Shown here: piece by piece, positions 20,940 through 63,673 of the stretch
Position numbering within the stretch: position 1 is the first letter of the stretch
Layout: every line of letters starts with the position of its first letter
Assembly (NCBI RefSeq): GCF_037975245.1
Contig: NC_092576.1
Location: 45,686,111-45,750,110 of the forward strand
Source of the DNA: Apostichopus japonicus
Lineage: Eukaryota; Echinodermata; Holothuroidea; Aspidochirotida; Stichopodidae
Reading direction: 5' to 3'
Length of the DNA: 64,000 bases
The notes under the pieces: model-generated
Database searches by the model: none
What the model was told of the DNA's origin: nothing
Seen by the model: the letters and a program-made list of their open reading frames with translations, nothing else
Translations under genes and position numbers: made by a program

Positions 20940-21010
20940 TTCCCAAATACCAGAGTCGAGATCAAGCCTATAATATTCATCATTCTTAGCAGAATCAGGG
21001 AACCAGAAAA
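20940..21010 (-). CDS. LRR-module exon C3 (last recognised exon)
   Basis: 71 nt, phase 1 to 0, acceptor gtttcttacag and donor GTAAGT. Encodes FWFPDSAKNDEYYRLDLDSG then IWE, with the LDL.SG.W core of C exons. The donor implies at least one further exon to the left, which I could not place in phase. Confidence 0.75.
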
Positions 21011-24000
21011 CTGTAAGAAACAAATAAGATTAATAAACAATATTTATGCTTTAACGAATAAAAGAATATCAATGATGTATTAGTGCATGAACCATTTTGA
21101 ACAATACACAATAGAAACAACCATATCACGTTTTACTAAGAGCTTTATTGTCTCTAGGAATTGCATATTCTTTCTTTTCGCTGAAATATTTTGAGTTGTT
21201 ATGGTGTCACATGTTCTTGTGAATTTTGAGAGGATGGGTTAAGTCAGACAAACTGTAAGTGAGCTACACTTGAGAATGCATTTTAAAAACACATAAAAAT
21301 GCTGTAGATATTCCCAATGAATCCCTCTATACGTTCTAGTCCCTGGTTAGCACCCAGATACCTTGACATATTAAATAAACTATAAATCTGTTCAATGTAA
21401 CGCGATAAGATCATCACACATTAAAAAAAAAAAATAGGTATTTTTATCTGCAATATTTGACCTTTATTAACTAGTTGTTTAAATTTGCTAGTGATTACCA
21501 TTCAGTCAAATTTCAAACCTTGAACGTCACGTCGTTGTACATATACCTTGAACATCGGCCGTAATGAACACGGAGCATATCTATCTCACACTCCGATACA
21601 GCAGGTATATAAAGATAAAGTACTTTTATTTCAGATTTTTTTTCAGGAAAGATCTTAATCGTTAGGAAAAGAATAAAAATTTACTTATTTCACAAATACC
21701 CGACAATGTAATTAGTCTGCGTGTTAAAGTGTTAACGATGTTGCAATACATGTGTCATTTTATGTACTTTTTGAAACCATCCAATAGTGTTTGTCAGTAC
21801 TTTCAGCGTTTTCATAGCCGTGTATTCATAGCACAATACCAGGCCAAAGGGAGGATACCAACACTTTTCAAAATATGTTTTTCGCGGGTACAGACTTAAT
21901 CTTCTGCCCTTCATTGTATGTTTAACTAAAGGATGCAATACAAGGCAGTGCTAGATCATACAGTTGGATCATTAGTCGCAACTCTGTAATGGTGTGAGTT
22001 GATTTCCATACGTTTCTTCATCCGTCGTGTTTCGACTTTTCTCAACTTTTTGTCAAAATCTACCAGTCTAACATAGAAGTCAACTTTAAATAGATGGGTC
22101 TATAAGGAACTTTTGTCAACAATTTTCACAATTCCAATGATAAACATCAATTAAAAACGTATTTACGGTCATAATTAACAAAGTAGACTTTCCGACAAAC
22201 ATCGTCAAATTTTCGATAAATTAGTCGACTAGTTGTGAGAGAAGTCAACATTTCATTGGTGCTACTTTATGATAAATAGTTGAAAATTACAGAAATTTAT
22301 CCAAAATTTTGATATTGAAATTATGAATTTTCGGTATAAAATAGTCACATTTCCAGTGTCCTACTTGAGCCACCGTAGTTCCGAAAAAAACAAGAGCCCA
22401 AGGGCACTGTGGTTCCTTGCTTGGGGTGTATGACAATACACATCATATTATCAAGCAAGATTGGGCTGAAATAGTCCAAGTAATTGTCCTACATGTTCCC
22501 ATAAAGTAACCAACACTATAGCCAACACTTTTGTGATCACAAAATGTGATCGGATTTTTTATCAAAAGGCACTTTTGAGATCTATATATGGCGTCGAAAA
22601 TGTAAGAAATATAAGAGACCTACAAGCGTGTCAACAGATATGATAACAATGGTGACCTCAGATGACATGACCTTTAAGTTTCAAAATGTTCCACCACCCC
22701 ATTCACAACTTGTCCCAAAATATCAACCATGTCACACCTTGGCATTGAGATTTAATTGCATTAAATGTCAAAAAATTAACTTTTGAACTTGTATGTAACT
22801 TCACACACAAAGGTCACCCGGAGGTCAACCGATTGACATTTTTGATCGGTGAGACCTAAATAGAGCATGACTGTAAAAATTCAAACATTTTTTCTTTGCC
22901 CATTTTCTCCCCCCATAATACTAGTTTTTTAACATTAATTGACCTTTGGTGACCTTGGATCACATAACCGTTAAGTTTGAAAATATTCCCCTATACCATT
23001 TGCAACTTGTCCAAAAAAATCAACCTTGTCACACCTTGGCACTGGGAGTTATTGCATTAAATGTCTGAAAATTAACTTTGACCTCAAATAACTTCGCACA
23101 CGAAGGTCAAATGGGGGTCAACCTATTGACATTTATGATCAGAAGGTACCTTTAACATCTGAAAATAGCATCGAAACTGTAAAAATCCCCAAAACACGAA
23201 AAGGTCACCAGAGGTCAAATTGAGGTCAAGGGTCACCCAGATGCGGGTCGACAATTGGATTACATTGAAGCAACTCCCAACCCTAACGGACAATTTGTTC
23301 TCAAGTTGTCACAAAAATACTAGGTTTTTATCATTAATTGACCTTTGGTGACCTTGTATCACATGACCGTTAGGTTTGAAAATATTTCCCTATACCATTT
23401 GCAACTACTCCAAAAATATCAACCTTGTCACACCTTGGAACTGGGAGTTATTGCATTAAATGTCCTTAAAATTAACTTTGACCTCATATAACTTCGCACA
23501 CGAAGGTCACACAGGGGTCAACCTATTGACATTTATAATCAGAAGGTACCTTTAACATCTGAAAATAGCATCGAAACTGTAAAAAATCCACAAAACACGA
23601 AAAGGTCACCAGAGGTCAAATTGAGGTCAAGGGTCACCCAGATGCGGGTTGACAATTGGATTTCATTGAAGCAACTCCCAACTCTAACGGACAATTTGTT
23701 CTCAAGTTATCGCAAAAATACTAGTTTTTTATCATTAATTGACCTTTGGTGACCTTGTATCACATAACCGTTAAGTTTGAAAATATTCCCCTATACCATT
23801 TGCAACTACTCCAAAAATATCAACCTTGTCACACCTTGGAACTGGGAGTTATTGCATTAAATGTCTGAAAATTAACTTTGACCTCATATAACTTCGCACA
23901 CGAAGGTCACACAGGGGTCAACCTATTGACATTTATAATCAGAAGGTACCTTTAACATCTGAAAATAGCATCGAAACTGTAAAAAATCCACAAAACACGA

Positions 24001-25776: not shown

Positions 25777-25807
<31 letters not shown>

Positions 25808-28800
25808 TACATACATACATACATACACACACACACACGCCAACCTGACTGCATAGGTTCCTTTTGCTAAAGCAAGGAACCAAAAATCAAGACCTGTAAA
25901 CCAAATCGCTTTCTGTCTCCTTATGTTTAAATCGCTTCCTACGATATTGTTTTCATTGCTATTTCTAATCAGAAAGCCTTTCTTCAATATATTCTAGTTA
26001 TGTTATCTGTATGATGGGTTCGATACACAGTTATATGTACTTTTATTTTAAATAATATAGGATAGTGATGGCCCATATCAGTCTTTAATGCAGCAGATTG
26101 ACTTTATCAAGAAAACCAATTTACTCAACTTGTTGCAATGTAAAATTTTACCCTGTATTATACAACATCAACACAAACATGGTATCTCCCAAATTTTCTG
26201 ACTTATGAATATCTGTCAATGTTTACTGCAACAGGCAATGACGCCCGGTGATATAGCGCCCTCACTTTGACTGAAACCAAAACCCCATCAAATGTCGTCT
26301 ACGAGAATGGTTCGAACTGCTAACAACATGAAACAGTCATAAACCGATTAGAACTTTACCATTCACTGCCCGAGATTTCAGTGTAGATAGAGATGGTCCG
26401 ACGGGTATCGATGAGGGCAGCACACAGTCCCTTAGGCTATAATCAGAGAAAGAAATAGAATCAGTCATTTGTCATTACATCTTTCTTTAATTGTAACTAT
26501 CTTGGATAAAGTATAAAGGTTAACTCAGAGAACGCAATATACATCAATAGTTGTTCCTTAAGGCCTCTGTTACAACCTCACATATCATTAAAAACAAATT
26601 AGGAAGGCTCTGGGACACTCCGGCTACGGACAATTCTGAAAACAACTATAAAACGGTTATTTGAAAATGATGGAAGTTTTGTTTACGAAGAATAACCTTA
26701 AATACAAATGTCTCAAGAAGGTTCTATTATGACGTCGAACCTTAATTCAATCGGAAACTTATGATAAATTATTACAGTGGGGCAACAGTGAATAGATAAA
26801 TTTAAGTACGGCTCTGTTTTATTCTTTTCAACCCACCTAACCACCGCCCTCCTCTCCTTTCCCACCAGCCCAGCCCGTTCCGTTCGTTGTCGGGTGCTCA
26901 TAAACGGCACCACAGTATTCATGTCCAAACTAATGTAACCTGACATGTTTTCCAACTCTATCTGAAGGAAGAAAGTTTACAAAATGTAAATCATGCAAAT
27001 ATTTCCTTTTACATTATCCATTTGTATATTTTTGTTTATCCGTTATTAAAAATATAAACGATCATTTTCAACATACTTTAAATAGAAGGTATATCTGATT
27101 AATCAAGGACCCTTGAAGGGTTGGGGAGGGGAGACCGTAAAAAAAAAGGATCTGATCAGTGTTTTATCTCTCAATTCGTTTGAATATAATTGTAAGTTGC
27201 CGACTTAATTTTCTGCATGTTAAGTTAATCTCACTATGCACAAACAGACCCATGAATAAGCTAACCAACAAATAAAAAAAAACATGAATCTTCGTTACGT
27301 CATCAATATATTGTTAAGGCATTTAACATAAAAATGGTCGAATATTTTTTCCACAAATTTATAGCTGACATCGCAAATTTACATTGTTGTCCTCTATATA
27401 TTGTCAGCTTTTATGAAATGTATCATTAAAGTTACATTTTGTTGTTAGTCTTATTCGGAACGACCTAAATAGCATTTATACATATACATTGAAGACGCGG
27501 TAGTATATCTCCTGTTAATAGTTTAATACACACGGTATGTTTTATATCGCAAGTTTTATTCGATTAGTTTTAGCGACGGTCATATCAAGTTTCTTGTGAT
27601 ATCATTAGTATAGTGTACAACCTCGAGATTCTTGGCACGTATAGGAATGACGTAAAGACAGAAAAAAAAAGGTTTATTTTAACCTCTCATCACGTGTATG
27701 CACGAACGCGATGCGATGAACCTGCGTTTTTTTTGTTGTTGTTTTTTTTTTTGGGGGGGGGGGGTTCACAAGTTATGTTACAATAACAATAGACGTAGAG
27801 AGTCCCTAAGATTTAACCAGCGCGAATAATGTAGCAGTCTATTGTAAAACTACTGCTCATATATGTATTGATTACGTCTATGTGCTCCATGCAGGTCCTT
27901 CAGTTTCATTGTTAGCTCTATATAAGTGCTATAATGATTTAACTAAGAATATTGAAGCACTGTGAAATACGTATAACAGGGGACCTTTTTAATATACAAT
28001 ACGTTGGGTCCTCTACACGGTCCACCCACTCAGCCCATTTGCCCCCCCCCCCCCCCGTAGGGCCATTTTGGCATGTTAAGCAAATACCGATAACACAAAT
28101 CTAGCAATTAATTTACAACTAAATTATCCATACGGCTTCCCTTCAGCATATATAGGCTATGCGGCTAGCGTGCTTTCATATCTTTACTTACATGAATAAA
28201 ACAATGAATAAAGCAGACCTTATAAAGTAACGCAATGTCCCATTAACCTTACAAAGTATTGTTTACCGAATGTTTGTTTCTAATTAACGTTTCTTTATTT
28301 AATTGTTTTTTATAATGGGAGGGGGAGGGGATGTTACATTTCCGGCAATCTGGGTGGTAAACTTGACAACAATGTTCTTGATACGTTACGCGCAAACCGG
28401 TGGTGGCGCTTCACTTAAATTGTGTCACAATGGCATCTTTTGGGAAATGACCCACTCACTAAAATATCTCTCAAACCAGTCCTGGTATTTACGCACAACA
28501 GAGCATCACCAACATTTGGACGATACATATTATTTATGGCTGTTCCTTAAACTGCCCCCCCCCCCTCCCCTCTCTAGGGCATCTACCCAAGCTAAGGCAC
28601 TGAAAGGAATGTCATGCCATTTTACAGGAGTCTTAACAGAGTTATAGCTGGAATTGGGACGGGGGGGGGGGGGGCGGGAGGAAGAGAATAAAGGAATCGT
28701 GGTTGATATATCTTCCAAAATAAAGCTACTGTAATTTCGAATACTCAAGAATTACCGTATGGCAGTAATGTTTTACCTCTCAACTCGTTAGCACTTAATT

Positions 28801-31800: not shown

Positions 31801-34800
31801 CAATATCATGCATGGCCTTCCAAAGATTTAAAACCAGACAGTGTCTAGACGTGACGTATTCATTGCAATCTCCAGGTACTTGTTTGTCAGTAAATTCCAG
31901 GTGCTTTTATAAAGCACGCGCGCGCGTCTCTTATATTGAACACAACTTCTTTTCATTGGAAGGCGCTCGCGTCTATTCCATTGTGTTGAACAAAAGAAAA
32001 TGTTAAACTATTGAAAGTGTCAGTACAGTCAGTGTACATCTTTAGTAAGAAAAAAAAATCATGAAATAAGTTCAATAGACTTTACGATAAAATAAAACGT
32101 GTTCTGAGTAGAAAAGAGTGGAATTTTTTAACGTACAAATGTATGATATAAATGTGTACAGTATTGTGTATATATGACAGGTTAGATTTAACAAATGGGA
32201 ATATGGTGACAACAACACACTGTAGAGTATATAGAGATAACATAAGGGCTATTGGCCTTGTAGGTTTGGGAGGGAGGGTGCATTGGGGAGTGGGGTGGGG
32301 GAGGGTGGTGGGTTGGGAAAATGGGGGGGTTGTTTGGTAGACAGGAGAATACTGCAATGTTAGTAAGGATCTGCATTAAAATCTTAGAGATTATTCTTTA
32401 AACAGATCTATGTACTGTGTTTGTTTCTATTAGTATATTCGGCAATCAATGAGAATAGATGAGAAAACATATATACGTGATTTGAGTGTTATTTCTAAGA
32501 GTTGTTTGTCGCATGGCGACGGGGTGGGGGGGGGCAAGGGTTGGAGTGGAGGAGGTGGCGACATGTTGATCAGAAGAGACGGACAATACTAGTATGACAG
32601 GTGACCTTGGTGTGTGTGTGTGTTTGGGGGTTTGTGTGTGTGTGTGTGTGGGGGGGGGGGAGGAGGGTGTTGTTAACAAGATCAGTTTCCAAGTGTTATA
32701 AACATGGTAAATGAAACGGGCGGGGTAAGTGGTCTAGCATAGTTTGATTTAGGGGTGGGTGTGAGGGGTTGGATTAGAGAAAGCTTAAGGTAGTATAGTT
32801 GAGAGGGGTGCCGTATTATTAGATGAGGCCAATTACAATCTGTTTAATTTACATCACTGTCTTTCTTTTACTTTAACATTAATTTGCATTTATTATTCGT
32901 TCATTTATAAACTAATTAAACAAAATTTTCTCCCGATAAAGAAAAGAGGAAAGTATTGACCTTAGGCTTTAGTATGACAAACTTTCTTTTTTTTTTCTTT
33001 CTAGTTTATCTCCTCATCATTTTTCTGTAAATGTAACTCATCAAAGTTTGTTTTTATTTATTTTAGGTAGATTTTGGCAAAGTGTCTTTTCATACCTCTA
33101 AGATGATAATAACTGAAATAATTGATTCCTCATATCTTGGTCGAATAACATCCTATTTTTGGGGGTTATTGTTTCAATGAGATATATTGTTTTGTTTTAC
33201 ATTTAGGCTAGGTACTCCTATCTCTTTATTTCAATACATTTCATTTTTGTGAAGAATTAATTGTTAAAGTTTGAATTATTAATCATATTCCTTACATGAT
33301 GACTGTTCCGTCATTGTTAGTTTATTTATTGATTCAATTTCTTCTTCATTTGTTTTGTTTTACTTCTACAATTATCTAAACCTATCAATAAATCCCTTCA
33401 GTAATTATTAAATATAACTATATTAATAATTCCTTTCTTGTTTACATCATTACTATTAATTAGTTATTTTATTAAGTACTAATATTATTTACATATTTAT
33501 TAATTATACTTACTTCAGTTCCTTGAATCTTTGAGAGTGTTGTACATAGTTTAATATTCCACTAACTTCATGTTTATTAATTTCTCTCCCTTCCTCTGTG
33601 TATATGCTCATCCTCTCTATTGATGTTATGATTGGTAGAGAGAGACCAGAGGAGAGGATAATGTTCCCATCTTCATCAATCTTACAAAAGGACCAGCCTA
33701 GAGTCACCCAGTATATAGGAATCTGCAGAAAGGAAATAATAAATAGAATTAATATCATCATGTTTGTTTACAGGATAAATACTTGAAAATAATAACATCA
33801 TAATTAATTTAGAAAGATTAAACTAATGTATTGTTGTTTTCATTTCATATTAATCAAATAATATTTGTTTATTTTAATCATATTTTGTTATAGTTGTGTT
33901 AATTATTAAATAATTAGTGGTTTGAATTTGTAAAAATTGGATGATTTTATCTGTAAAGTTTGTTTTATCTTCGCTTTATCTTTGGTTTGATTTCAAGATG
34001 TTAAAGAGTAAACAAGAGGGTTAGGTTTATTACAGAGATCAGTTATTGTTATTTCTGTAGAATAAATTAAAGGTGTGTAAGAGGGGTGAGGGATGGACGG
34101 TACAAGGGATGTCAGGGGTGTAGGGAGGGGTGTGTTATGGTAAGGAAGGGTGTGTTAAGGTTTAGTGATATTTGGTAGGGGTATTAGGAGGGTGTCTTAG
34201 TGCGGGGGGGGGGGGGCGTGGATATGGTTTACCCTAGTAAAAGTTATGTTGTTATTGTCAAAAGTGATAGATAAAAGGACCGATGGGTGTCGTACTGGGT
34301 AGGGGTGGGTGTGGTAGGGGTAATGAGGGGTGCTTCAGGGTTTGGGGAGCAGGCAGACGGCTTAAACATATTTAATGTAATTTGTTTTTGAAGGGTGATG
34401 AGAAGGGTGGACATGAGCCCGAATTAATATGTATTATTTAATTTATGTAATTTATGATGGGTAGAACAGGTTAAGATGGGCTTGGTTTTTCAGTAAACTG
34501 TTAATTAGTATACATTTTATATTTAGGTATCAGTTTGTTTTTGAGGTATTCTAATACTAAGGTATGTTTATCAATCACTTCATTTATCTCTGTTTTAATT
34601 TAAACGTAAACTGAAACAGAAAAAAAATATCCGGCCGAATCCGTAAAATAGGAAACAATTCATTGACCCTTTCTGTCTTGAATTATTATTTTATACTTAA
34701 CTTTCTGGGAAGATTTTGAAAGATAAAATTAATGGAGGTAAGATGAACAGGAAGTATTGCTGAATAGAAACCTTGAAAAAGAATTTCAAAATGATTATTT

Positions 34801-37800
34801 ACATGTTTCTTATCCTACACACTATATCCAGTACTTGCTTTGTATTTGTTTGTTTATTGTTTGTATTTGCGATCCAATTTGAACCTGTATTTCCTTGTTC
34901 TAATTTAAACAGTTTAATATTTAATAACTAAAGCGATCTAATCTCTTATTAATTTCATTCAACGGTTTTATCTAATTTTAACTTGTATTGATTGATGTAT
35001 TTATTCAATATATCCCTTTATGTTTCACTTACGTCATGATTGGATGCTTCCACCAGGAGCTCTATGACTGACCTCTGTACAGACTTACTGCTGTCTCTGT
35101 GGATGATCAAACCATCTGAACACATCACTGTTATAGTCTGGATGTCATCAGGCTATTGAAAGAAAGAAATAGTAATTATTTAATAGAATACTATTAATGT
35201 AAAATTGAAGAGTTAAGGAGACAATGAAATTTGGTGTTAATAGCGGAGTTTAATAAATTGATTAATTCAGCAGATATTTAAAACAAAGTTTACAATTAGT
35301 TAAATATTTCTGTTTGAATTTGTATGATTTACTTCCTGCACAATGAAGCAAAGTACGATAACAGTTGAGTGATTATCTAAATTAATCAGATTAAAGAAGA
35401 AAAAAAAGAAGTATTTTAAAGAACAGCCGGCATGATGACTTTACACGACTTCGACTGAGATACATTTCCTGGAATAATGTAATTAATTAGCTTCAAATAA
35501 ATGTATCTAGAGTTTACAGCAAGATATTGTTTTTTTTTCCTGTAAGAATCATATTGTCTGACACCAGAATATTCCATACTGGGAGACAATATCTGCCATT
35601 AACTCTCAAGGATGCTGGCTTTTTGTGATTATGTTTTGAAAATTGATCAACCCCTCTATACCCCTTCACTGTTATGCATGTTACTAATAATAACAGTATC
35701 ACAGGAAAATGAGAAAGCAACTAACATTATTAATGATTATAATTTACTTAAAATATATAAGATATTACAAACCTTCGTCCATTTACCAGTTGATAGATCA
35801 AGCAATCTGGCTTCACTGGATGATATGACTGTAAAAATTGATGAAATCAATAACATCAATAAAGTATTATAGAAATACATGACATATTTTAAACAATACA
35901 TAAGATTCAATATTAATTTGTTTCATATACTTATAATGTTAACAGTCAGAGGTAATGTACCTGTACCAGAGGGATCGAATATCAGTTCTCTCTACTAATT
36001 AATTAGTAAAAAAGTACTAGAAAATTAACAGTCACTAGTAATCTAACCAATAATTATATTCTCTTTGTTACCTAACAATTCCTGCTTACTTCACAGTCCT
36101 TATTTTATAGGGTAACAATAATATATTAAGTAACTCAATACAATAAATCTCTTAGATATTCTTTTAATATGTGACTTGATAGAAAGCTCTTTTAAATCAG
36201 CTTAAGGAACACCAACGAAGGAACTTTTAGGAACTCCAACCCCTCCCCCCCCCCATCCACCCTACACCCACACAGGACCACTTTCCTCTCTTGTCACAAA
36301 TATGTGAAACGTTACATTAAAAACAATCTACTTTATCAATAAATCTTTTAATTCTTATGTAAACATCGTACCTTTAATATTCCTTAATCTTGATTCTTCT
36401 GGTATGATGTCTGGATTGATCGATGACGGCAGTTTACAGTTATCAAGCCTTCAAAGGTAAAGAAAATATAAATAAAAGGAAAGTAAATATTTAATATTTA
36501 TAAAATAAATAAAAATCTGATGTCATCACTGTAATAAATTACATTAAGGTCAATGAATTTGCCTTTTCGTTTATTATGGTAAAACAGCTGTTGACAAGTT
36601 ATAAGTATCAGCCATTAGTTATTATGGTCAAACAACCCTTCCACCACCCCTCCTTACACCCCCTCCCATTAACATTTGATTATTTGATATTTTTAACTAT
36701 TTCTATTTATTAATAAATGTTGCACAACTCTTGCAAATATTTTTCAATTTATTACAACTGATACTGTATTTTAAAATACACAATAGAAGTTTTCGTTTCA
36801 TGTACTTGAAATCTTCCCATCTTTCGTTTCAGTTTTTGAGTAATAATTTATCTTTATAAAGGTTTCTTGTAGTTTTATTTCGTTTATAAGTTTTAAGGTT
36901 ATTTGTTTTCCTATTATACTGACCCCCCCCCCACCACCAGCAACTCACCTTGTTACATCCTAATGTGTGGAAAAGCCTAACGATGTGCTGTAAACTGCAC
37001 AATCAGTAATGAAATAAAATGTTAACACATTTCCCAGCTTAAAACGAATTCCAAATATGGCAACATTTCAAACCGTCTCAACACAAGACTTGTACATTCA
37101 ACTAAAATAAAAATATCACTGCACAGTACCAGTACCTTATCCCCTCCTATAAACCCCATACGCTAACCCTCTGACTACCCCCCCCCTTTTACCCACAAAT
37201 TATCAGTCAAGGCCTGTCACGATGTTTTTCCCTCACCATAGTTCCTTGAATATTGGTGACTTTATTCCATAGTTTATTAATCCGATCACTTCTTCTTCTG
37301 TTAATTCTTGTTCCAGTCTTCCTTCATTGATGGATATCTTCTCTACTGATGATAGGTTCGATAAACTAAGACCGGACTCAAGTCTGATATCTTTACCATC
37401 AAATCCACTGAAGGACCATTCTAGGTATAGATGAGATATTGGAATCTGAAGAATAGGAAAGAAAGATCACAGTTACTTATCTTATCGTTCATCCATGATG
37501 GATAAATACACATGACGATTATCCAAAGTATGTGTAATAGAAGACAAAAACGCATACAAAATCTACAGAATCAATCATTAATTCTAACAAAGAATTGTAT
37601 GTGATTTCTTATTTTTTCGATTTTCATAATATTAGGAATTTTATTTTATTTCAATTATATAATAAAAATAAAAAAGAAGAGTGGTGCCTTATTCAAACTT
37701 GCTTGCCAAACGTACCAATAGAAAAGCATGATATAATAATGATTTTATTAAAATAAAATTCGTAAGCTGACGAAATTCAGATAAAAGTAAAAAACAATAT

Positions 37801-43800: not shown

Positions 43801-46800
43801 CTCACCTTGAATGTTACGTAACTTCGTAAGAGGAGAAAGAGAACCCACGAGAAGAGACAGAGGTAACAAACAATCAATGAATCTGTAAAATAAAATGTGA
43901 TTTGTGGGTGTTGAATACGTTATATGATTGAGTTGTTTTGATGTTATCCACCATTTATAAAATAATTATAGTGTAAAGTTAGTGATGCATCAGTCATTAA
44001 GTATTGTTGCGTTCCGAGCTTCTCTGCATATGTATTTATTGAGTGTGCTCGCCTGTTCTCAGAGAGAACGAATCAGTTTTTGCTTTAATGTCTCATTCTG
44101 GTGTTCACACTACACAATAGTAAAATACTACACATGAAGTACAATCCCTTTAACTTTTTACTAAACAACGACAACAACACTATCACGTTACAGTATGTAT
44201 ACATCATTCTTCTAGCTAAAAGTTACCGTTCATTCAAGAACACAGTTCCACAGTTTGCTGGTTTGTAAGTAATCGATCATTAATTAACGTTAATAAATAA
44301 CATAACAGTAGTGGTATGCGACTACTTACGTCAATTTCCGCAGCCGTTGGCATTTTTGTGAAAAAGACAATAATCCTATGACTTGGTCCTGGGTAAATTC
44401 TTTTCCAATGTTCGTTTTGATCTGTAGTTCCTCTAAGGTGGACGATACAGGTACAAGTTTTCCATTTTCCAGAGTTATGTTATGTTGGTCTGCAGAGCTA
44501 AATGATGCTAGTCCGAGACTGGTAAACTTAATATAAGGAAAACACGTTTTAGAAATTATTAGACAATCGTGCGCAGTCAAGAGCAATATATGTTCATATC
44601 GATGACTGTGACTTTTTACATATCAGACAGACAAGATCGTCCATGCAAGCTTAATTGATGATGTACCAAATCACAGAACTTTAAACCGACGGAAAATATG
44701 GAAAAGTTAATGTGTGTAATATTGTTTTCGATTATACGAAAGCATATAGGAATCAAGCCCATCCGTTGCTCGGAGTCGTATAATCACTACCAACCGTTAT
44801 TATTAAAATAATGTACTCCAATTACAAACATTTCTCGTTGCATCAGTACTGAGAAAACAACAACTTAGAAATAGTAGCTTAAGTTGTCGAACTATAGACT
44901 TGGTCTAGCACAAGCAGCTTAATGTTTTAAATAATCTTATTCTACATAAGCAGGTAACGCATTTGTTTCTAGCTAAATATTTCAATTTACTCACGTCAGA
45001 ACTGAGAGATATCTTTGAACCGAGATCCAGTTTGTCAAACTTAAGATCTGTTGGAAATACGTAGATAAAAATAAATGATAACAAAGTGTTAACGTTTCTG
45101 TTAGCATCAAGTATTAAACACTTGATGGTTTATCGGTTACTTCATCAACTCATATTGTCATATTAGTTCATTGTTATGGATGTTTCAAGTGTATCGTTAG
45201 ATTGTTGGTACGGCAATTGTACATTGTATACGTTTTCAAAAATGGAAGGTGATGATTGATATGAATATGTTTTATACTGTATATACATGAAATGTTCTTG
45301 AGAATCATATACTAACCTTCTGGTTCTTGTATAGACTGATCATCACCTGTACACCGTTTCCCTGTATGACGCTCGAACATTGTTTGCACCCTTTCATGTA
45401 TCCCATTAAGATTACACGCTTTCAAAGCACGTAGAAGAGTCGTGATATCTGTTTCTGTGATTTCCCCTCTCTCCTCCAAATATTGAACCATACGGTAATT
45501 ACGACCATCCTTATTTTGCAGCAAATCGATTTTTGCGGGTGGATAATTAAGGAAGGTTGCAAGGTGCAAAATATTTTCTCCAGTTAGTATATCAACTAAT
45601 TTAGCTTTAAAGCTACCAAAACCTGGTAAAATAAACAATAACACGAAGAATTCACTTTTCACATATTCCGGATCAGGTGTAAGGGGCCTTATGACTACTT
45701 CATGAACAATACAATCTACATGTATTAAATTTAAGTAAAATACATATTAATTCACGAATGAGAAGAGAATGGTATAACTAACCATATGTAGGCCAAAAAT
45801 GAAGAAACAAACGGACCTGTGCAGATTGTATACCAGTCTAAGAGACTGTGTATAGTCTAGATGTCGTTTGAATGCATATCAGTTAATCCGAAAGAACAAT
45901 CTCTCCCCCCCCCCCCCCCCATTGATGTTACTTTGCTGATGTGTAATTTCCAATTGCTATTCAATATATTGATAACCGTACCTGTTGAATTCTTCTTCTT
46001 TGCTGTTTCTACCACATGCTTGAAATTGGTAGCCATCGTACCTGAAAATTGTAATAATGTAGCGTTTATATTTACTGCTAATACGATAAATAGCAGTAAA
46101 ATTAGTCAAATATTACAGGAAATGCATTTGATCAATATGGTTCCTTCAGGCTTATGAGATTGAGGGATGAAACTGGTTTTAAAAACTTAAAATTCAGCAC
46201 ATTATGTTGCTGCTGCGTTGTCTAACAATTACAGAAGGATAACGAGTTTGTAATGATCCATCGCTTTTCAATGAACTCTCACAATGAATCACAAATGACG
46301 CTAATGTATTATTTGTGCACGAGAAAGCAGTATTGTATATCACAATATTGCAGCACATTTCACTCCAGCTTACTCTGCTCTGCTGAAATCGACCCGACCG
46401 CCGAGACATATGTTTCTATAGTTGATCAACATGTATATTCTTGAATCTGACAAATTCACACTTAATAACGGTGATCCAGCATAAACAACTGAGTTTCATT
46501 AATATTCAGTGTCTGTTTAGGCAACATGCAAATGTATATTGGATGATTTGATGATGGATTGATTACATTTGTTAAACAGCTTTAGTCGGCAGACGTCCTA
46601 CACCGCCAATTACCAGTTATACAAACGCACATGTTGGCCATGATGTTTATAGAAGCTTTGCCAAAATACAACTGTCAGTTCCAAATGAGTTGTCGTGTAT
46701 TCTTGGGCACCGTCGACCAACCTAACATAGCACAGCCTGAGTTACACCCAATTACTGCATGTATATAGCTAGACATTACAACGTTATATATACTTCACAG

Positions 46801-55099: not shown

Positions 55100-55160
55100 A
55101 TGTTGAACGGAGCAGTTTTTAAGGCATTTATTCTTATCCTCATATTGAACTATTTCTCCG
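55100..55160 (+). CDS. Exon 1: signal peptide
   Basis: ATG at 55100 encodes [20 protein letters not shown], a typical leader, then a GTAAGT donor in phase 1. Phase 1 matches all the following Ig exons, which supports this start. Confidence 0.8.
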
Positions 55161-58100
55161 GTAAGTTGACCTCCAGCAGTATCTTATATTAAGAACTACG
55201 TTATGTTCTAAATTGTTCAAGAATGGATTATGTAATGTTCTTGTTATATTACAGACAATGCATTGAGCTACTACAATGTGCATGGTATAGGCCACGTAAT
55301 AATTACGCTATATTTCATGTAATGCCCATGATGTATGCTAGTTAATGTACTTGATAAATGTGTTGTTATGCTCTCGGTACACCGTATGTATTATATATGT
55401 TATATACCATTTATTGTCCGTCATGTATTATAATAAATGTACACTGCATTGTTTGTTATATTCATGGTATGTCTTATGTAATATGTTTATTATATTTCAT
55501 GTAATGTCCCTGATGTATGTAAGTTAATATACCTGGTAGATGTGTTGTTATGCTCATGGAATACCGCATGTAACACGTGTGTTATATTTCATTTAATGTC
55601 ACTGGTGAATGTCATTTAATATACATGATAGAGGGGTTGTTATGTTTATGACATACCGTGTATAATATGCCTGTTTCATCCCATGTACTGTCCCTGATAT
55701 TTGTCAGTTAATGTGCATGGTAGATGTGTTGTTATATCATGATACACCGTATGTCATGCAATATGTATACTATGCTATGCGCTCTACCAGTAATACCACG
55801 CTGTAGATCTGGTAAAGTCCATGCGATATTGGGGGTATGCGCCATGTACTATACCTGATATACGTTTCTTAATGTCGGTAGTCTAGTTCATATAATTCCT
55901 GTTGAATACAGCATACATGGTAGATGATATATCAAGTAATGTGCACGTATAGTGCTATATAATCTACCAGGTATTATCATGTTCATGATATGATTTATGT
56001 AACGTTCAGATTATAAATCATGTAATGTGTATAGCACATATAACGTATCCGGTATTAGTCATAAGATTTGCCTTACATATCCCATATAAAGTATTTGATG
56101 GAGTCGTCGTATGTATTAAGTAAGATATCGTGTAAGTTACTTAAGGTGTGGTTTTCACTGTGTTATAAGCAGAATAAAGGACAGTGGTCCTCTGTGATAT
56201 CATGCCAATAGGTCTCTAGGTTCTGTACAAGTATATTGTGTACGTAAAATGTCACCCGTGCATATAATGGCATACATCCGTTATGTCTTATAACAATATG
56301 TGTATAATATGCTGTAACCCTCACCCGAACCAATGCCTCTGGTTTGTGAAATGGATAAACATTTAATGTGATGCATGTAACTTCTCCAACGTGGTACAAT
56401 ATGTTTCAGTTTAATGGATTAAAAGGCTCACGTTGTTCCCTCTCCAATGAAGCACACGTAGATCACATGCCTAACTGACATATCTCTCTTGATTATATTT
56501 CTCTGTTCTCAGTTTTATCTGAAGAGAAATGCCCATCTCCACAATACCTTGAGTTTGGAAAAGTAGGAGTCGTTTTCTGTGAATTTGAGACCGCAATTTA
56601 CAGCATCCACTGGTATGATACAGATGACGTCACTGCTTCGAAACCAACTATCGAAGTAGATAGCGATGGCACCATAGGTGGACCTGGTTTTACATCCGGG
56701 GAATACAACATTAACCCTGATGGATATCTGGTTGTCAATAACGTTTCTGTTCATCACGAAACAAAGTTTACAGTTACTAAATTCAAGTCTACTTCAGAAT
56801 TACCAATTGTACTTGTAATAGAGGTTAAAGTCATAGGTAAGCATTTCAGTAAGTGGCTATTGCTTCTCGGCCTTTTGGCTAAGATCATGTGTAGTATATG
56901 TTCCCTTTCGAGGGGAATGGTGATGCACACACGACGATGATCACACAGTCACAGTCTCGATTCAAGGGGACTGGGATTTTGAGCGGATCAGTCGGTTTGT
57001 TGTTAGGTATTTCGTGCCCAGGTTCTTTCCGGGGTGATTTTTCGTAAATAATATCAATTTTGAAATTTTATGAACAGTTCAAGTGGTTATTAAAATTACT
57101 GATTTCCTGTTTTTGTCATTACACAACATTTAAAAAATGTATCTGCTAGCATACTGTTCATCAGTAAAGATAATTCAGTCATTGTTCTAGTATTGATGAT
57201 GCGTTCTTTAACAGTAAATATTGTTATTTTTTTGTTTCTATACAATGTACAGTAATACCGGTTTTAGCTTATCCTGTTATTGACCAGTGTTCAACACAAG
57301 AGGAAACATGTTTCACTCGTCTTGGCTGGAATGAACAACTTACATGTAGAATAGCCGACGCCAGACCGCCAGTGAATTTATCATGGCATATGTTGACCAA
57401 GGCAGGACAGACATCTATCCCGTTTACACGTTTCATAACCAATGGCACGATAACCCAGTCATCATATGTTGAAGTAGCCGATGTGTTTGAAAAGTCACCG
57501 AGTGTGGTTTTGCTTGTTTGTAAAGCAGAAACCGACGCACCGTTGTTGAATCGTCCTGAGTCGTTTGTATTGGCTCAGAATCAAAATATCGATCTTATTG
57601 ACATTATCGTTTCTGACGTCATCGTTGAAAAGGGACAGTGTGTAAATCTTACTTGTTCCAATGCTGATATTGATATACTTGTCTGGGAGAAACGTGATTT
57701 AGAGAATAACTTTGAGACAATCGCATATTACATTAACTTTGAAACCTTGATTCATAAATCCCTAGATGAAAGTGTTGAAATTAGTAACCAAGGTTCTTTG
57801 GTCATACCCGACGTTCGTTTGGAACATGAAAGTTATTACAGATGCCTATACAACAACGGAACTGGAGATGTAGCTGCATTTAAAATAGCTGTATATGGTA
57901 AGAAAGCTGCCTTTAAAATGTATGTACATGGTTAGATTGCTGTATTAAAAATGCATGTCGATGTTAAGATAGCTGCATTAAATACATATCTATGGTAAAA
58001 TAGCTGCATTAAAATACATGTCTAAGGTATAATAGCTGCATTTAATATGCATGTATATGGTACGATAGCTTAGTATCAAAGTGTTCTTGCTGTGTCGAGG

Positions 58101-60453
58101 ATGATTGCTGAACGCTGTGTCCTAATGATATCAAACAAATATACAAACACGTGTATTACTGTAGCCTTTCATGTACTTTCTCAACAGTTTACTGATATAA
58201 TGTAATAATGTATGCAATGTGATGATCATCAGATATATTACAAATTCTTTAAGGAGTATACTACTTAGCATATTTAACTGAACAATAGAATGTGTCATTA
58301 TATATAATTTCGTGGTATGATAAGATCCATTTATTTTAATATTTCTGATCTTCAATGCAGTTAGTCCGTCGCCAGCTTATCCAGTAGTTGACGGGTGTCC
58401 ATCCGATCGGTACTGCACGTTAAATGTCGAACGGCAAGGAAATTTAACGTGTACAGTTAAAGGCATACGACCGGCCATTGAACTTCAATGGATGGTGCAT
58501 TATGAAGATTCTATTGATCAAATATCATTTCACAATCAACAAAGTAAAATATTAACTAATGACGGGACTTCAGATGTTATCCACACAACAGAGTACAAAG
58601 TTCGAGATACTGCCAGTGACAGAGTAACAGTGGAGTGTTACAGTATTGGTGCACGAAAAGATTCGTTGGCTTTGAGCACCACCATCGATCTACTGATTGC
58701 TCGTGGTAATAATATATAACATTTACTCAATATGAAATGTGTATTGAGATCCAGCAAACTTGTATAAGAATCAATTGTGTTCATTACAATATACGTACGT
58801 GTTTACCCTTCACTGCTACCCGACTCCGCCCTGGGCCTACCCAACCACGTATGACCAATCACCCGATACTCATGGCTCGTACAGTAACTACTGTTCATGT
58901 CCTGTAACACATGTTACGAACACAAAGTAGTAATTACTAGTGTACTGTTGTGGGACTTGAACGATAGTTGCTGTACCAGCCATGGAGTCCAAGTTCGTTA
59001 ATACGCGAAAATAAGGTCTCAACTTGGCTTTTGAATGCTATAAGTAGGCCTAGATGGATATACCCAAACATGACCTTTCTTCGTTCTCGGCATGAAAAAT
59101 TGGCGTAATTTAAAGGAGAGATGTCAACTGGAATCAAGCGGTATCGTACCTACTTTAATTCAAATACATAGCTAGTACAGTAACTACTGGTCCCACAACC
59201 GTGCATCAGTATTTTTAACACGATGAAATATGTTACATGTGTTACCAGTAGTTTTTGTACCAGCTACTGAGTATCAACCGGATCAATCAAACTGTCTGTC
59301 GTATACCAACCAGTGTAATTAAAGAAACATTCCCAGTTAATGTGATCTTTGTTATTTGTGTCTATCATCAAGTGAACAGTTATATACATTTTCAGCTTTT
59401 ATATTGAAGCAGTGTTCCAGTAATCACGCCTATTGTTTCTCCCTTTCATAGATGACGTCATACCAACGGCTAAAAATCAAAAAGAGACTGGATTCCCAAT
59501 AATAATCATCGTCATAGTACTTGTTGTTAGTTTTATTCTACTTGTAGCTGGGGTGATATTCGTCATAATAAGTGAGTAACTACACATGTTATTGCAATGA
59601 AAACACAAAGTCTATAAATGAGATAAAACGACTGTATGTACTTTCATTGTATATCTCAGTTTTTATTCATGAATTGTCGCAACATTGCACCACAATTACA
59701 GTTTGACGATGATTTCTAGTTGTGCGTATCACATCAACATAGCCTCACATGTATTAATTTACAAGATAAATTATCTAAGAATATATTTTGGCACGTTTGT
59801 TTGATCTAGTTGTCATCCTTGTGTTTTAATTTAACGAATCAATGTTTATTCATTGTTTAAATCACGTCACTAGGATATGATAATACTTTAATTTCATGTA
59901 ATATCTTCTTATTTATTAGAACTCCGGAGAAGACCCAAACCAGACACTTTGAGCAATGAAGAGGTAATACCAGATAATTATATTATCAAATTGATAAACA
60001 GTTGTCATAATGAATGTATTCTTTCTCGTAGAAGTTTGTTCGTTTAAGGTTGTAACAAACTGATAAAGTAAAAAGTTCAACCAAAACATGATCCAATTGT
60101 ATTAAAGTTATGATATTGATGTTGGCAATTGTACAGTAAAATACAATAGCAATATAAAGAATGGCAGCTGTTCATAGAGAAAGCATTAAAGTGTACCGTG
60201 TACGAGGAAAAACAAGCAGTAAAGTTATATTGCTATCGGTAAGTTAGCGTCGTGTGATAATGTAGCAAAAGCCACTCTTGTCAGATATATCAACTCTAAA
60301 GTTGTCAGACTGCAACTGTATTCTGCTTCATTGTTTTCTACCTTTGACTTTCTTTAGAATTTTGACCTGAAAGAAACATTACTAAACCAACCTGAAGGTA
60401 TGTTAATATATGTATGTATGTATATATGTTTATATATATATATATATACATAC

Positions 60454-60511
<58 letters not shown>

Positions 60512-63500
60512 TTGTTTCGTCAAGTTCATAGTTTTGATATTTCTTTTATAAAAACACATTTAATAAATCATGAAGAAGTAGATTCAAATTAAATGTAAAC
60601 CACATATATTTATGAGCCTACTTTTGTGATTTTTTCAATCCAAAATATGTTTATTATGATATATAATTTGGTGTTTAACTTTGTAAATAAGTTGAGTTTA
60701 ATGATATCAAATGGACAAAGACATTATATGAATTATGTTAACAAGTTTATTCTGTTCTCTTAGTAGTTTATGGATAAAAACAGTATATCTAAATTTTCGC
60801 TTTGCTTTACACGCCAGTCGCAAAAAATAAAACCCTTTTGGTAGAACAACTAAAAGGAACGTATGCCAACTTTTACAACGCTATAAAACCAGTTCCTTAC
60901 CAGCGGGAAAAGACGTACTGTGTACAATCTGTATTTGTAGAGGGTGGCATGTCTTGCCTAGAAGACAAAGCACTGGGAGACAAAGAGACATGGGAACCGA
61001 TACAATCTTACCAGGATATCTGGACTGATCCACGACTAAGATCGAAGAGAAGGATCATTGAGGGAGGTCCCGGTTACGGAAAGTCCACACTTTTCTTACA
61101 AATGGCTCATGATTGGTGTTCTAATGAAGGAAAGTCAGCTTTGAAAAATGTTCAAATACTCATTCTATTGAAACTTCGACAGTTAGCAGGCATCAGCTCG
61201 ATATATGAAGCTATCAGGATATTTCTCTTACCCAGGAACTCTAAACTTAAAAATCAAGACATTGAATCGATCTTGGACCAGTCCTCCTCTGTTGTAATGC
61301 TGTTCGACGGCTTTGACGAATATCCGGACTATGAAAATACAACAGATATTTTAGACATTATCCAGAGCAAAATGTATCCAAATTTTGACGTTATTCTGAC
61401 GACACGATTATCAGATCTTCCAAAGGACTTGGCCGCGGAAACAAAACGACTACGTCTCACAGGCTTTGGTAGTGAGGCTCAACATACTTACTTGAAGAAG
61501 GCAGTGACTAAAGACGATGTAGCTGCTGGTGAAAGGATTCAAAATGTTCTTTATGAAAACCCCATCTTCAGAGACCTCTGCCAAATTCCTCTCTTTTTTG
61601 TCATGTATGCCCATCTCAGTCAGAGGAGTAAGGAGTTACAGACTTGCACATCGGCTACAAGTTTCTTTCGTTATATGGTGTCATCCTTACATCAACATCT
61701 TAAGAGGAAGTTCAAAGATGAAAACGTGGAACAGGTCGATTTGCTAATAGAGAGAGAACATAAATCATTGGATAAGATTGCTTTTGAAAGCATCAGCGGA
61801 ACAGAACGAAAAACTTGTTGGAAGAGGAGTGACATCGCCGATTGCTTGGGAGAATCTTTGCTTGTTCAGTGTCTACGTGTTGGCACACTACAGGAAGAAG
61901 AGTTGACAGAATTCCACGACAGCCCTGGTATCAGAGCTCATGAACATGTAGAATACATAACCAATGTTACATTTTATCACGAGCTATTCTGCGAGTGGTA
62001 CGCAGCACATCACTTAGCTGATGCCGTAGAGAAGTTACACAGTAGCAGTGATGAAGGAGTTAGTGACGTATTGGATATTGTAGATCCATCCAAGCATCAG
62101 TATGTGTTTCGATTTGCTTGCGGGATCAACCTTACTGCTGCTGACGTAATCATAAGATATTTGAGCGGACTGATTGGAAGAAGTGAGATTGTTATTATGT
62201 GCATTCTTGAAAGAATAGGCTCTGTGGACAAGATTCTTGATGTCATGGAAAATCTGTGCTCCAATCCTATCCAAATCAAAGCGGATAACTCAAAAATACT
62301 TAACAGATCAACCCTACAGCTGTTGGAAATTGCTGACTTAAAAGAGGTAAATAAATCATCGAATTAAAACAAAATGGTAGCATTGTGTAGCTGAGAAACT
62401 TAACGATGTAATTAGCTACAGGAAAGGCACATTTGTGCTGTTTTTGTCTTTATGTTTCTCTTTCTTGAATAAGAATTACTGCCAACAGAGTTGAAAACGA
62501 TTTTATTGATTCTGGTTTTAGAAGTAGATCTGTTTAACTTTACACCATCTCGGGTCATGGTAGATATCATTACATGTGTGGAAACATCGTGGTAACTATT
62601 TTGTTGTTTCATCCCTATAGGTTAGCGTTTCAAGCTTGATTGTCAGTGAATGTTTCCACGCTGTCGAAGAGTCCCAGAAAGCGATTCTATTGACGTTTGA
62701 TCTTCAATTACCGATTCTTTCTACACTTAGAGAGCTTATAATTGATCAAAGTGGGAAAGAATTTCAGGAGGAGGAATTGAACGACGTGTTTACATACATT
62801 GCTAACTGTATACAATTAAAAATATTGAAGTAAGAGAATGTGTTTCTATGCTTATTGCTATACATCAATCAATCGATCATTCAAAAAACATTTATATATC
62901 GTTAATATCAACAACACTTGTTCAAAATGCACTACCAGACATATTAATAACACAACCGCAACTTATTTATCCATAGACACATTATTGAAACAGCAGCGAC
63001 TATGCTTGTTAAATGAAAGAGTTAATGACACTGGTCTAAGACAATCTACATACATAAAGCCAAAAATGTAAAACCTGGCTCATGAGTACAATTGGACGAG
63101 GTTAAGGAACGTCATATTTCTGGACTCACTCCACGATTAACAAGTATTGCTTAGTAATAAACTGTTTAGTGTCTGGCAGGTAGACAGATGCAGAACGAGA
63201 AATAAAGGACGTGCGTTCAGAAATGAACTGAATCAATGTCAGTAAACTTAACCTGCATAACTATGCGTAGTTACAGCACGTACCTGAAAATCGTGAATCA
63301 GAGAGTAGATATACTAAGTGAACTAACGAGCATAAGTTTAGTGAAGTTAACTAACTGTAGACAGTTATCTTTAAGAATGACAGTCATTTCTTGTAATACA
63401 TTAATTTCATTCATTAGGTTAAATCTGCATCTCTATCTTTGCTTTCTACTTAAAATAATATCATGTTATTGATGAGAGTATAGCAGTATCCACTGTCAGA

Positions 63501-63673
63501 AACAAGTACATGCCTTAAAATCAACAGTATATGTGATGTTGTTGGAGAAACTTCGCGTTTGGTATTTGATGTCGTTATTTTTTGTTTTGTTATTCATAGA
63601 TTTTCCGGATGCATTTTGCCTGACGTCATTAGGTCGACGTATTTGACAATTTTCTCTACAAGCGGTGCAACAG
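55100..63673 (+). CDS. Ig-TM-NACHT-LRR receptor (runs off right edge)
   Basis: Ten plus-strand exons join in phase (3391 nt, about 1130 residues so far). Residues 1-20 are a signal peptide; ~21-128 Ig V-like; ~129-343 C2-like plus V-like Ig; ~344-458 C2-like Ig; ~459-498 transmembrane exon with [19 protein letters not shown]; ~499-526 a short basic/acidic linker ([14 protein letters not shown]); ~527-1036 NACHT; then LRR exons A and B. The NACHT has Walker [10 protein letters not shown], Walker [11 protein letters not shown], an ILTTR sensor strand, an IPLFF GxP-like region and a winged-helix [14 protein letters not shown]. The product should be a type I surface receptor with an intracellular STAND NTPase that oligomerises on activation; this role is inferred from the domains. 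There is no death-fold or other effector domain between membrane and NACHT. The gene continues past the window with a phase-1 donor. Confidence 0.85.
55210..56050. repeat. Degenerate minisatellite filling intron 1
   Basis: Recurring phrases such as catgtaatgtccctgatgta, gttaatataccTGGTAGATG-like words, gtgttgttatgctcatgg and taccgtatgta recur at roughly 95- and 180-bp spacing. Copies are diverged. Confidence 0.7.
56513..56836 (+). CDS. Exon 2: Ig V-like domain lacking the second cysteine
   Basis: 324 nt, 108 codons, phase 1 to 1, acceptor ctctgttctcag and donor GTAAGC. Has the first Cys (VVFCEFE), Trp (IHWYD) and the late-strand pattern [15 protein letters not shown], but V stands where the family has the second Cys (compare [10 protein letters not shown] in exon 3). 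The usual intradomain disulfide is therefore missing. Confidence 0.8.
56859..56903 (+). ncRNA. U2 snRNA 5'-end fragment
   Basis: The 45 nt starting attgcttctcggccttttgg and continuing through ctaagatca and gtgtagtat match the 5' end of metazoan U2 snRNA with about three differences, including the GTAGTA branch-site-pairing segment. After ttc the match stops, and a ttccc/gggaa hairpin follows instead of U2 stem IIa. It lies in intron 2, 22 nt past the exon 2 donor. Most likely a U2 pseudogene or part of a chimeric retroposon; not a complete U2 gene. Confidence 0.75.
57253..57897 (+). CDS. Exon 3: C2-like plus V-like Ig domains in one exon
   Basis: 645 nt, 215 codons, phase 1 to 1, acceptor tacaatgtacag. 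The first half ([24 protein letters not shown]) is a C2-like domain related to exon 4. The second half ([30 protein letters not shown]) is a complete V-like domain related to exon 2 and to the Ig exon at 50966-51284. Two domains in one exon imply loss of the intron between them. The donor sits inside a small tandem repeat. Confidence 0.85.
57866..58075. repeat. Minisatellite spanning the exon 3 donor
   Basis: Units of about 33-40 bp built on atagctgcattaaaatacat then gtctatggtaa. The last coding bases of exon 3 (gtagctgcatttaaaatagc) are the first unit. Several units carry atggtaa- or atggttag-type donor-like words. Confidence 0.8.
58361..58705 (+). CDS. Exon 4: C2-like Ig domain
   Basis: 345 nt, 115 codons, phase 1 to 1, acceptor atcttcaatgcag and donor [27 protein letters not shown] and VTVECYS align with the first half of exon 3, so V-C2 is a duplicated pair. 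Confidence 0.82.
58840..59290. repeat. Foldback repeat in intron 4
   Basis: Two inverted halves (about 58855-59000 and 59165-59290) share gctcgtacagtaactact / gtagttttt-type blocks, cccacaaccg and tgttacatgtgttac. A block near 59050-59110 is the inverse of 47155-47210. No coding content. Confidence 0.6.
59452..59571 (+). CDS. Exon 5: transmembrane helix
   Basis: 120 nt, phase 1 to 1, acceptor tttctccctttcatag and donor GTGAGT. Encodes [14 protein letters not shown] followed by about 24 uninterrupted Ile/Val/Leu-rich residues. One helix, with a basic stretch (KLRRR) at the start of the next exon, giving type I topology. Confidence 0.88.
59920..59963 (+). CDS. Exon 6: juxtamembrane segment
   Basis: 44 nt, phase 1 to 0, acceptor tcttatttattag and donor GTAATA. 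Encodes [14 protein letters not shown]. The Arg-rich start is the cytoplasmic stop-transfer signal. Confidence 0.7.
60358..60397 (+). CDS. Exon 7: short cytoplasmic linker
   Basis: 40 nt, phase 0 to 1, acceptor gactttctttag and donor GTATGT. Encodes [13 protein letters not shown]. Fits the phases on both sides; short, so chance cannot be excluded. Confidence 0.6.
60400..60510. repeat. (TA)n/(TATACA)n microsatellite
   Basis: Alternating TA for roughly 90 nt in the intron right after the exon 7 donor. Tyr/Ile-repeat open frames on both strands are artefacts. Confidence 0.95.
60818..62346 (+). CDS. Exon 8: NACHT ATPase domain
   Basis: 1529 nt, phase 1 to 0, acceptor gctttacacgccag and donor GTAAAT. 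Walker A ([10 protein letters not shown]) at 61063-61092; Walker B ([13 protein letters not shown]) near 61290-61329; DVILTTR strand near 61390; [20 protein letters not shown] region near 61560-61617; winged-helix [17 protein letters not shown] near 61975-62023. All residues expected for nucleotide binding and hydrolysis are present. The last ~35 codons ([14 protein letters not shown] then [13 protein letters not shown]) align with the separate D exons of the minus-strand gene. One large NACHT exon is common in animal NLRs. Confidence 0.92.
62621..62829 (+). CDS. Exon 9: LRR-module exon A
   Basis: 209 nt, phase 0 to 2, acceptor tcatccctatag and donor GTAAGA. Encodes [33 protein letters not shown] and QLKIL. 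Same length, phases and layout as A2 and A3 on the minus strand. Confidence 0.85.
63600..63673 (+). CDS. Exon 10: LRR-module exon B
   Basis: 74 nt, phase 2 to 1, acceptor gttattcatag and donor GTACTT. Encodes [18 protein letters not shown], matching the L..C.LP..I core of B exons. Later exons lie beyond the right edge. Confidence 0.78.

Follow-up and report, generated by a model that had tools for sequence, protein, structure and literature searches.

Paired immune receptor (NLR) genes in head-to-head orientation are recurrent in plants, and receptor tyrosine kinases of the immunoglobulin (Ig) type are known as a class. The closest systems described to date come from sea cucumbers. AjNLRC4 of Apostichopus japonicus is a membrane receptor with an Ig ectodomain and an intracellular NACHT domain that binds microbes and drives actin-dependent phagocytosis (PMC8699970), whilst AjNLR-new (PIK48001.1), from the same species, is described as having Ig, transmembrane (TM) and NACHT parts in one chain (PMC13133943). 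For Chiridota heheva, another holothurian, NLRs with an Ig V-set and Death/DED NLRs are given as counts, and the accessible portion of that report mentions no pairing (PMC8913654). Here we analyse a stretch of 64,000 nucleotides of A. japonicus DNA (C16:45686111-45750110 of a 671.6-Mb assembly; hereafter 'the window'), in which a gene for an Ig-ectodomain NLR on the plus strand (the Ig-NLR gene) points away from a minus-strand exon encoding a signal peptide and a V-type Ig domain (the V exon).

The divergent pairing of two Ig-ectodomain genes is confirmed here; it recurs in the genome far above chance, and the pairs duplicate as units. The Ig-ectodomain NLR architecture itself is already described, AjNLRC4 and AjNLR-new both being published, and an earlier reading of this DNA made from its letters only (the sequence-only reading) was mistaken, as regards such NLRs, in knowing of no animal counterpart; a head-to-head genomic organisation of Ig-TM-NACHT receptors was not found described in the literature searched. 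That reading had also joined the V exon to a death fold and leucine-rich repeat (LRR) exons in one minus-strand gene working with the Ig-NLR gene, whereas the window holds three separate units, not two, the third being a DED-LRR gene. The interpretation that we prefer, and hold to be rather probable from the comparisons below, is that the Ig-NLR gene was co-duplicated with a divergent V-Ig receptor gene, the two being possibly co-expressed and acting together, and that the DED-LRR gene stands apart. Of the earlier interpretation there remains only a divergently oriented pair of immune receptors with Ig ectodomains, a reduced version with firmer support than the letters alone could give.

The names V, Ig1-4, k-exons, c1-c4 (c for local copies) and h1-h8 are labels of this analysis. 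Relatives were drawn from a census of 162 proteins listed by two length-limited searches (120 of 187 matches, plus 42/42), and so not an unbiased sample, in which TM and signal-peptide labels follow a plain hydrophobicity rule.

The Ig-NLR gene and the V exon opposite it

The Ig-NLR gene comprises ten exons, from 55100 to 63673, joined in frame with GT-AG borders. Its exons and the V exon are as follows (window positions):

50965..51284, minus: V-Ig exon, signal peptide and V-type Ig with a phase-1 GT donor; head-to-head with the Ig-NLR gene and member of a recurrent family
55100..55160, plus: exon 1, start codon and signal peptide; GT donor in phase 1, in-frame join, helix 4-19 in the P0001 model
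56513..56836, plus: exon 2, first Ig (Ig1); without a Pfam match of its own, conserved among relatives
57253..57897, plus: exon 3, Ig2 and Ig3; Ig2 C2-like below the Pfam cut-off, Ig3 V-set (Pfam 1.2e-6)
58361..58705, plus: exon 4, Ig4; C2-like, below the Pfam cut-off
59452..59571, plus: exon 5, transmembrane helix; hydrophobicity scan, helix 476-500 in the P0001 model
59920..59963, plus: exon 6, opening with the basic cytosolic stretch KLRRRPK; in-frame splice
60358..60397, plus: exon 7, cytosolic linker; in-frame splice, 100% in P0001
60818..62346, plus: exon 8, NACHT and following helical part, about 1.5 kb; Pfam NACHT 1.3e-14, above cut-off
62621..62829, plus: exon 9, LRR A exon; in-frame splice, LRR comparison
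63600..63673, plus: exon 10, LRR B exon; in-frame splice, the gene running beyond the window

The ten-exon splice and the Pfam matches confirm the gene proposed in the sequence-only reading, which had placed a signal peptide, Ig, an intact NACHT and LRR exons in one plus-strand gene from 55100; the TM exon between the Ig domains and the NACHT had gone unmentioned. With it, the product is predicted to be a single-pass receptor with a signal peptide and four Ig domains outside, one TM helix, and NACHT and LRRs inside, and a further LRR-linker exon of the type seen in relatives lies about 100-200 bases past the window end. Intact NACHT nucleotide-binding motifs are present and the C-terminal LRR A/B exons are in frame, as in NLRs, and in place of an N-terminal death fold there stands the Ig-TM part. 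No Death domain of the type seen in census protein P0033 was found in the 263-kb region read around the window, part of which reads N. In P0033 this C-terminal domain (Pfam Death 1.2e-11) unites ectodomain, engine and death fold on one chain, and its Ig-TM-NACHT-LRR-Death order recurs in one more of the 162 proteins, P0051 of Holothuria leucospilota, the two being near-identical at the start.

The annotated A. japonicus relative P0001 (BSL78_15342) is 94% identical to the Ig-NLR product over 90% of its length, and its AlphaFold model (70 sequences; mean pLDDT 84) has strand-rich, Ig-sized blocks at residues 31-456, compatible with four Ig domains, followed by a helix (residues 476-500) and by a NACHT part that in the PDB matches NLRC4 and NOD2 best. 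The NACHT residues G614, K615, D690, D693 and E694 (P0001 numbering; GK and DxxDE-type) are invariant across the 70 aligned proteins. P0001 shows no LRR because it ends early, its last residues reading another frame of the window's NACHT exon. LRRs are the norm among the fetched proteins with both Ig and NACHT, since 90/102 match the LRR profile.

The Ig-NLR gene has the layout of AjNLRC4 (signal peptide, Ig ectodomain, TM, cytosolic NACHT, one chain), and its published positions, Ig 251-353, TM 483-503 and NACHT 600-757 (PMC8699970), lie close to those of the P0001 V-set (250-331), helix (476-500) and NACHT (606-757). AjNLRC4 is, however, reported there without LRRs, and the window's gene has LRR exons. 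Three motifs encoded by AjNLRC4 primers were found in 0/162 census proteins, a shorter part of one motif being present in seven, P0001 not among them; the two are probably not the same gene, judging from these comparisons. AjNLR-new shares with the Ig-NLR gene the species and an Ig, TM and NACHT on one chain, but the published topology prediction puts the Ig inside and the NACHT outside (PMC13133943), opposite to the orientation suggested for the Ig-NLR product by its signal peptide and single TM helix. The published topologies count two membrane helices (PMC8699970, PMC13133943), and AjNLR-new's published orientation may be inverted if one of these helices is the signal peptide. Census protein P0005 has the same length as AjNLR-new, 1197 residues.

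On the minus strand, the earlier claim of a start codon at 51284, with a signal peptide and then a V-type Ig akin to one in the plus-strand gene, also stands: the V-Ig matches Ig3 of the Ig-NLR gene (37% over 46 aligned columns, E 1.5e-5), whilst its Pfam matches all lie below the cut-offs. The two starts, at 51284 (minus) and 55100 (plus), point away from each other, as had been stated, and are 3.8 kb apart.

Recurrence and co-duplication of divergent pairs

The 263-kb map around the window contains six NACHT exons, four of them with an Ig ectodomain, and in 4/4 of these Ig-bearing genes Ig1 has a V exon 4.3-5.3 kb upstream of it on the other strand. Upstream DNA was read for eight further V matches, the best ones outside the window region, and a divergent Ig1-2-3 ectodomain was present in 5/8, with Ig4 also seen in three; among those five, a NACHT followed the ectodomain in 3/3 tested. 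In order to assess the arrangement across the genome, 150 of 151 V-exon candidates were scored, giving 80 matches, and 150 of 321 Ig1 candidates. A divergent Ig1 was found within 10 kb of 33/80 V matches, compared with none in convergent orientation, none upstream on the same strand and one downstream on the same strand. On C16 alone 30/72 V matches are paired, where 300 circular shifts gave an average of 0.7 (at most 4) and 300 local jitters one of 1.6 (at most 6). The divergent pair of the sequence-only reading is thereby upheld within the A. japonicus genome, with the difference that the partner is a V-type Ig gene, kinase-like in some copies, and not a DED gene.

Divergence of the two members is correlated, V distances following Ig1 distances over nine pairs (Mantel r 0.72, p 0.002) and Ig2-3 distances over eight (Mantel r 0.85, p 0.004). 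The V exons of the nine pairs are 31-62% identical to one another and open in 9/9, and between the intergenic stretches of the four local copies blastn finds no similarity at E up to 1e-3.

The tightest V/Ig1 pairs on C16, among them those at 32922591(-)/32923734(+), 22887575(-)/22888663(+) and 37503072(-)/37504499(+), have gaps of about 0.85-1.2 kb between the Ig exons and are candidate bidirectional promoters.

The V-Ig partner and competing explanations of the pair

Behind the V exon and on its strand, the local copies c3 and c4 have two or three Ig exons of C2 type, then a TM-like exon of hydrophobic character, and a set of kinase-like exons (k-exons) that are conserved between the two copies. 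Against Pfam, one of the c4 kinase-like exons matched PK_Tyr_Ser-Thr at 5.3e-7 and another only weakly, at 0.015, and three others gave no match. This resembles the Ig-type receptor tyrosine kinases in its Ig, TM-like and kinase-like exons, but differs from them in that both copies have VLIT at the place which, from the VAIK motif, we take to be that of the catalytic lysine, in that a catalytic-loop exon was recognised in neither of them, and in that no kinase exon was found in the window copy. Because of the VLIT and the unrecognised catalytic loop, the partner is possibly a pseudokinase. One kinase-like exon has 23 matches genome-wide; five of the top six on C16 share a strand with their nearest V exon and are 7-11 kb downstream of it, in a comparison of all 23 kinase-exon matches with 23/80 V matches hand-picked for nearness; c3 and c4 themselves are two of these five. 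The kinase-like gene of c3 also contains two long open frames, which we take to be LINE-like.

By analogy with AjNLRC4, the Ig ectodomain of the Ig-NLR would sense microbes, and its intracellular part would oligomerise and drive phagocytic or inflammatory output. The V exon is the first exon of a family that many times in this genome is paired divergently, and has duplicated, with Ig-NLR-type genes, forming in some copies the tip of a V-C2-TM-kinase-like receptor; the common intergenic region might co-express both Ig genes, and the V-Ig product might serve the Ig-NLR ectodomain as partner, co-receptor or ligand. Taken furthest, this would give holothurian two-gene receptor units of co-duplicated Ig-TM-NACHT-LRR and V-Ig genes, the latter ancestrally kinase-like and possibly pseudokinase, with co-expression from one region, Ig-Ig assembly and diversification as matched pairs, a proposal that in its full extent we regard as somewhat unlikely. 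If true, such units would be an animal counterpart of the paired immune receptors of plants, present some thirty times in one genome. They share with the plant pairs the divergent transcription of two immune receptor genes and the recurrent orientation, but in the present pairs a single member is an NLR and its partner is an Ig gene, the regions read showing no NACHT behind the V exons. Few sea cucumber papers have described Ig-TM-NACHT receptors; a recurrent divergent partner is a candidate co-receptor for these orphan Ig-NLRs, and the question of what their Ig ectodomain interacts with becomes directly testable.

Several observations weigh against a functional partnership of this kind. Ig1-4 were absent from the 6 kb read upstream of 3/8 V exons, the NACHT behind the ectodomain was checked in seven pairs only, and 47/80 V matches have no divergent Ig1 match within 10 kb among the Ig1 candidates scored. 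The listed pairs involve 32 distinct Ig1 matches out of 150, so that most are in no listed pair, and an array of 35 Ig1 matches at C16:5167452-6058200, all on the plus strand, contains no listed V pair (57/150 Ig1 matches were taken into the array analysis). In the window itself no convincing C2, TM or kinase exon was found behind the V exon, and the same holds for c2 and for h1, to which the window's V exon is most closely related and in which 9.8 kb were read; the window's V product is therefore undefined and may be a relic. Passive persistence is also conceivable, both genes simply duplicating together.

Within the Ig1 array, some neighbours are about 1.1-1.4 kb apart. In c2, a low-complexity match to a C2 query some 9 kb past the V exon (E 1e-3, 22% identity) was dismissed as chance.

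Only the first exon of a partner-type receptor is thus recognisable in the window, where it may represent a stand-alone (secreted) gene, the start of a gene whose downstream exons have diverged, or a relic. The last of these belongs to an explanation in which neighbours of an ancestral block were co-duplicated and the window's V exon is the leftover of a lost receptor-kinase gene, functionless with respect to the Ig-NLR. The correlated divergence suits block duplication, C2, TM and kinase exons were not found in the window, c2 or h1, two long frames of LINE-like appearance lie within the c3 kinase-like gene, and V exons occur without a partner too. Passive pairing of this sort fits less well with V exons that stay open in 9/9 pairs at 31-62% identity and, in all four local copies, retain the GT donor, unlike decaying exons, or with an orientation and neighbourhood kept despite the dissimilar intergenic DNA of those copies. 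We regard it as quite possible, though short of probable.

Alternatively, the window's V exon could be a complete gene whose secreted product has one Ig and about 107 residues, as would fit the frame read through the donor, which ends HVQG and then at once in a stop. In c2 and c4 the frame instead continues past the donor, the four local copies keep that donor, and c3 and c4 have additional receptor exons behind the V exon. Nor was a V-bearing protein found among nine candidates of 178-565 residues, a search outside which a protein of about 107 residues falls. We consider a gene this small unlikely, and co-duplication with a divergent V-Ig receptor gene remains the interpretation that we prefer.

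The minus-strand DED-LRR gene

Fifteen minus-strand exons from 46036 to 18188 splice letter for letter into the annotated A. japonicus protein P0121 (577 residues), which begins with its own methionine at 46036 (MATNF; opening sequence MATNFKHVVETAKKKNSTG) and has no Ig; this exact match and the 94% identity of P0001 place the window in A. japonicus. Behind the death-fold exon come the KLDLGSK linker and three LRR A/B units, and the protein ends in KVGSW with the stop at 18205-18188; each of the following is placed by the P0121 splice:

45982..46036, minus: first coding exon, MATNFKHVVETAKKKNST
45317..45622, minus: death-fold (DED-like) exon; also Pfam and structure model
44995..45047, minus: KLDLGSK linker exon between DED and LRR, at the NACHT position of DED-NACHT-LRR relatives
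44330..44526, minus: LRR A exon; also LRR comparison
43806..43882, minus: LRR B exon
43508..43596, minus: linker exon
40980..41099, minus: exon before LRR A
37237..37445, minus: LRR A exon
36372..36448, minus: LRR B exon
35773..35828, minus: linker exon
35033..35152, minus: exon before LRR A
33514..33722, minus: LRR A exon
26360..26436, minus: LRR B exon
20940..21010, minus: linker exon
18188..18205, minus: last coding exon, KVGSW and stop

The same type of start (MATN, MAAK or MASN) is found in 6/10 DED-LRR paralogues (P0122, P0123, P0124, P0127, P0128 and P0129), which are predicted proteins from two naming sets, BSL78 and NCBI models; P0125, P0126, P0138 and P0154 have other predicted N-termini, and an Ig is present in 0/10. 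Pfam searches with ten death-fold members (E up to 1) matched DED in 8/10 and Death in 4/10, the first member lying below both cut-offs. PDB profile matches of the death-fold exon were to the p75NTR death domain (E 0.004) and c-FLIP (E 0.13), and a model of P0121 has six helices in this part (pLDDT about 61-75) and an LRR module that models as LRR, with NLRP and TLR matches. Together these suggest a death fold leaning to DED, not firmly DED. Matches of the exon to Pfam DUF2095 and to THR6 in the PDB were taken as chance, being short stretches of which none passes alone.

Exon 45622-45317 and the lack of a NACHT in the minus-strand gene, both noted earlier, are thus real, as are related LRR exons on both strands; the part that fails is their assignment, since death fold and minus-strand LRR exons belong to P0121 and not to the V-Ig gene. 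No minus-strand TM exon came to light between 50960 and 45700 when phase-1 acceptors with fair splice sites were scanned for; the same scan recovers the TM exon of the Ig-NLR gene and would miss weak sites or another entry phase. With the exact P0121 splice, its own start and no TM exon found, Ig-DED-LRR as a single gene is rejected, and the DED-LRR gene, on its exon structure, is separate from the V-Ig exon and outside the recurrent pair.

The split receptor advanced in the sequence-only reading, in which a minus-strand Ig-DED-LRR receptor would work with the plus-strand Ig-NACHT-LRR receptor, has some features in its favour: the V exon ends in phase 1, which is also a possible entry phase for an exon 46041-45982; in P0125 and P0138 residues are predicted ahead of the same TMA..N stretch, so that this exon may be internal in paralogues; and both genes have related LRR exons. 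P0121, however, has no Ig and a start of the kind shared by most of its paralogues, Ig and DED occur together in 0/162 census proteins, and because no TM exon was found between Ig and DED the death fold of such a product would be secreted. A DED gene, moreover, adjoins only 1/4 of the divergent Ig pairs in the 263-kb region, on which ground it was also rejected as a conserved death-fold output of the pair. We consider a split receptor highly improbable, which corrects the idea of an Ig-DED-LRR protein encoded at this locus.

Single chains already uniting the parts exist, both in the two Ig-TM-NACHT-LRR-Death proteins and as DED-NACHT-LRR in 3/162 (P0116, P0117 and P0162). The latter resemble the window's DED-LRR gene in a related death fold and LRR, but that gene has a short linker exon in the place of the NACHT. 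DED-LRR proteins without NACHT number 11/162 and Ig-TM-LRR proteins without NACHT 2/162 (P0131 and P0132), and the KLDLGSK junction is common to these two NACHT-less classes. One LRR profile thus stands behind Ig-TM-NACHT, Ig-TM alone, DED alone and DED-NACHT, a reshuffling of NLR parts in holothurians. The cytosolic DED-LRR gene, without a NACHT exon, might encode an adaptor or regulator of the same NLR family.

About 73 kb to the left of the window's DED exon, at C16:45649931-45658061 (minus), two DED-like exons and a NACHT exon run in the same direction and likely form a DED-DED-NACHT gene. Between the V exon and the DED-LRR gene lies a 134-residue open frame (49984-50388, minus) with no Pfam match above the cut-off. 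The DED-LRR intron 26359-21011 contains a tandem array (22917-24734; period 400, 4.5 copies, 95% matches), and an open frame at 29822-30145 (plus) resembles the tail of a non-LTR retrotransposon reverse transcriptase. Minisatellites are present at 19244-20515 (period 47, 27 copies) and at 47416-47873 (period 14, 33 copies).

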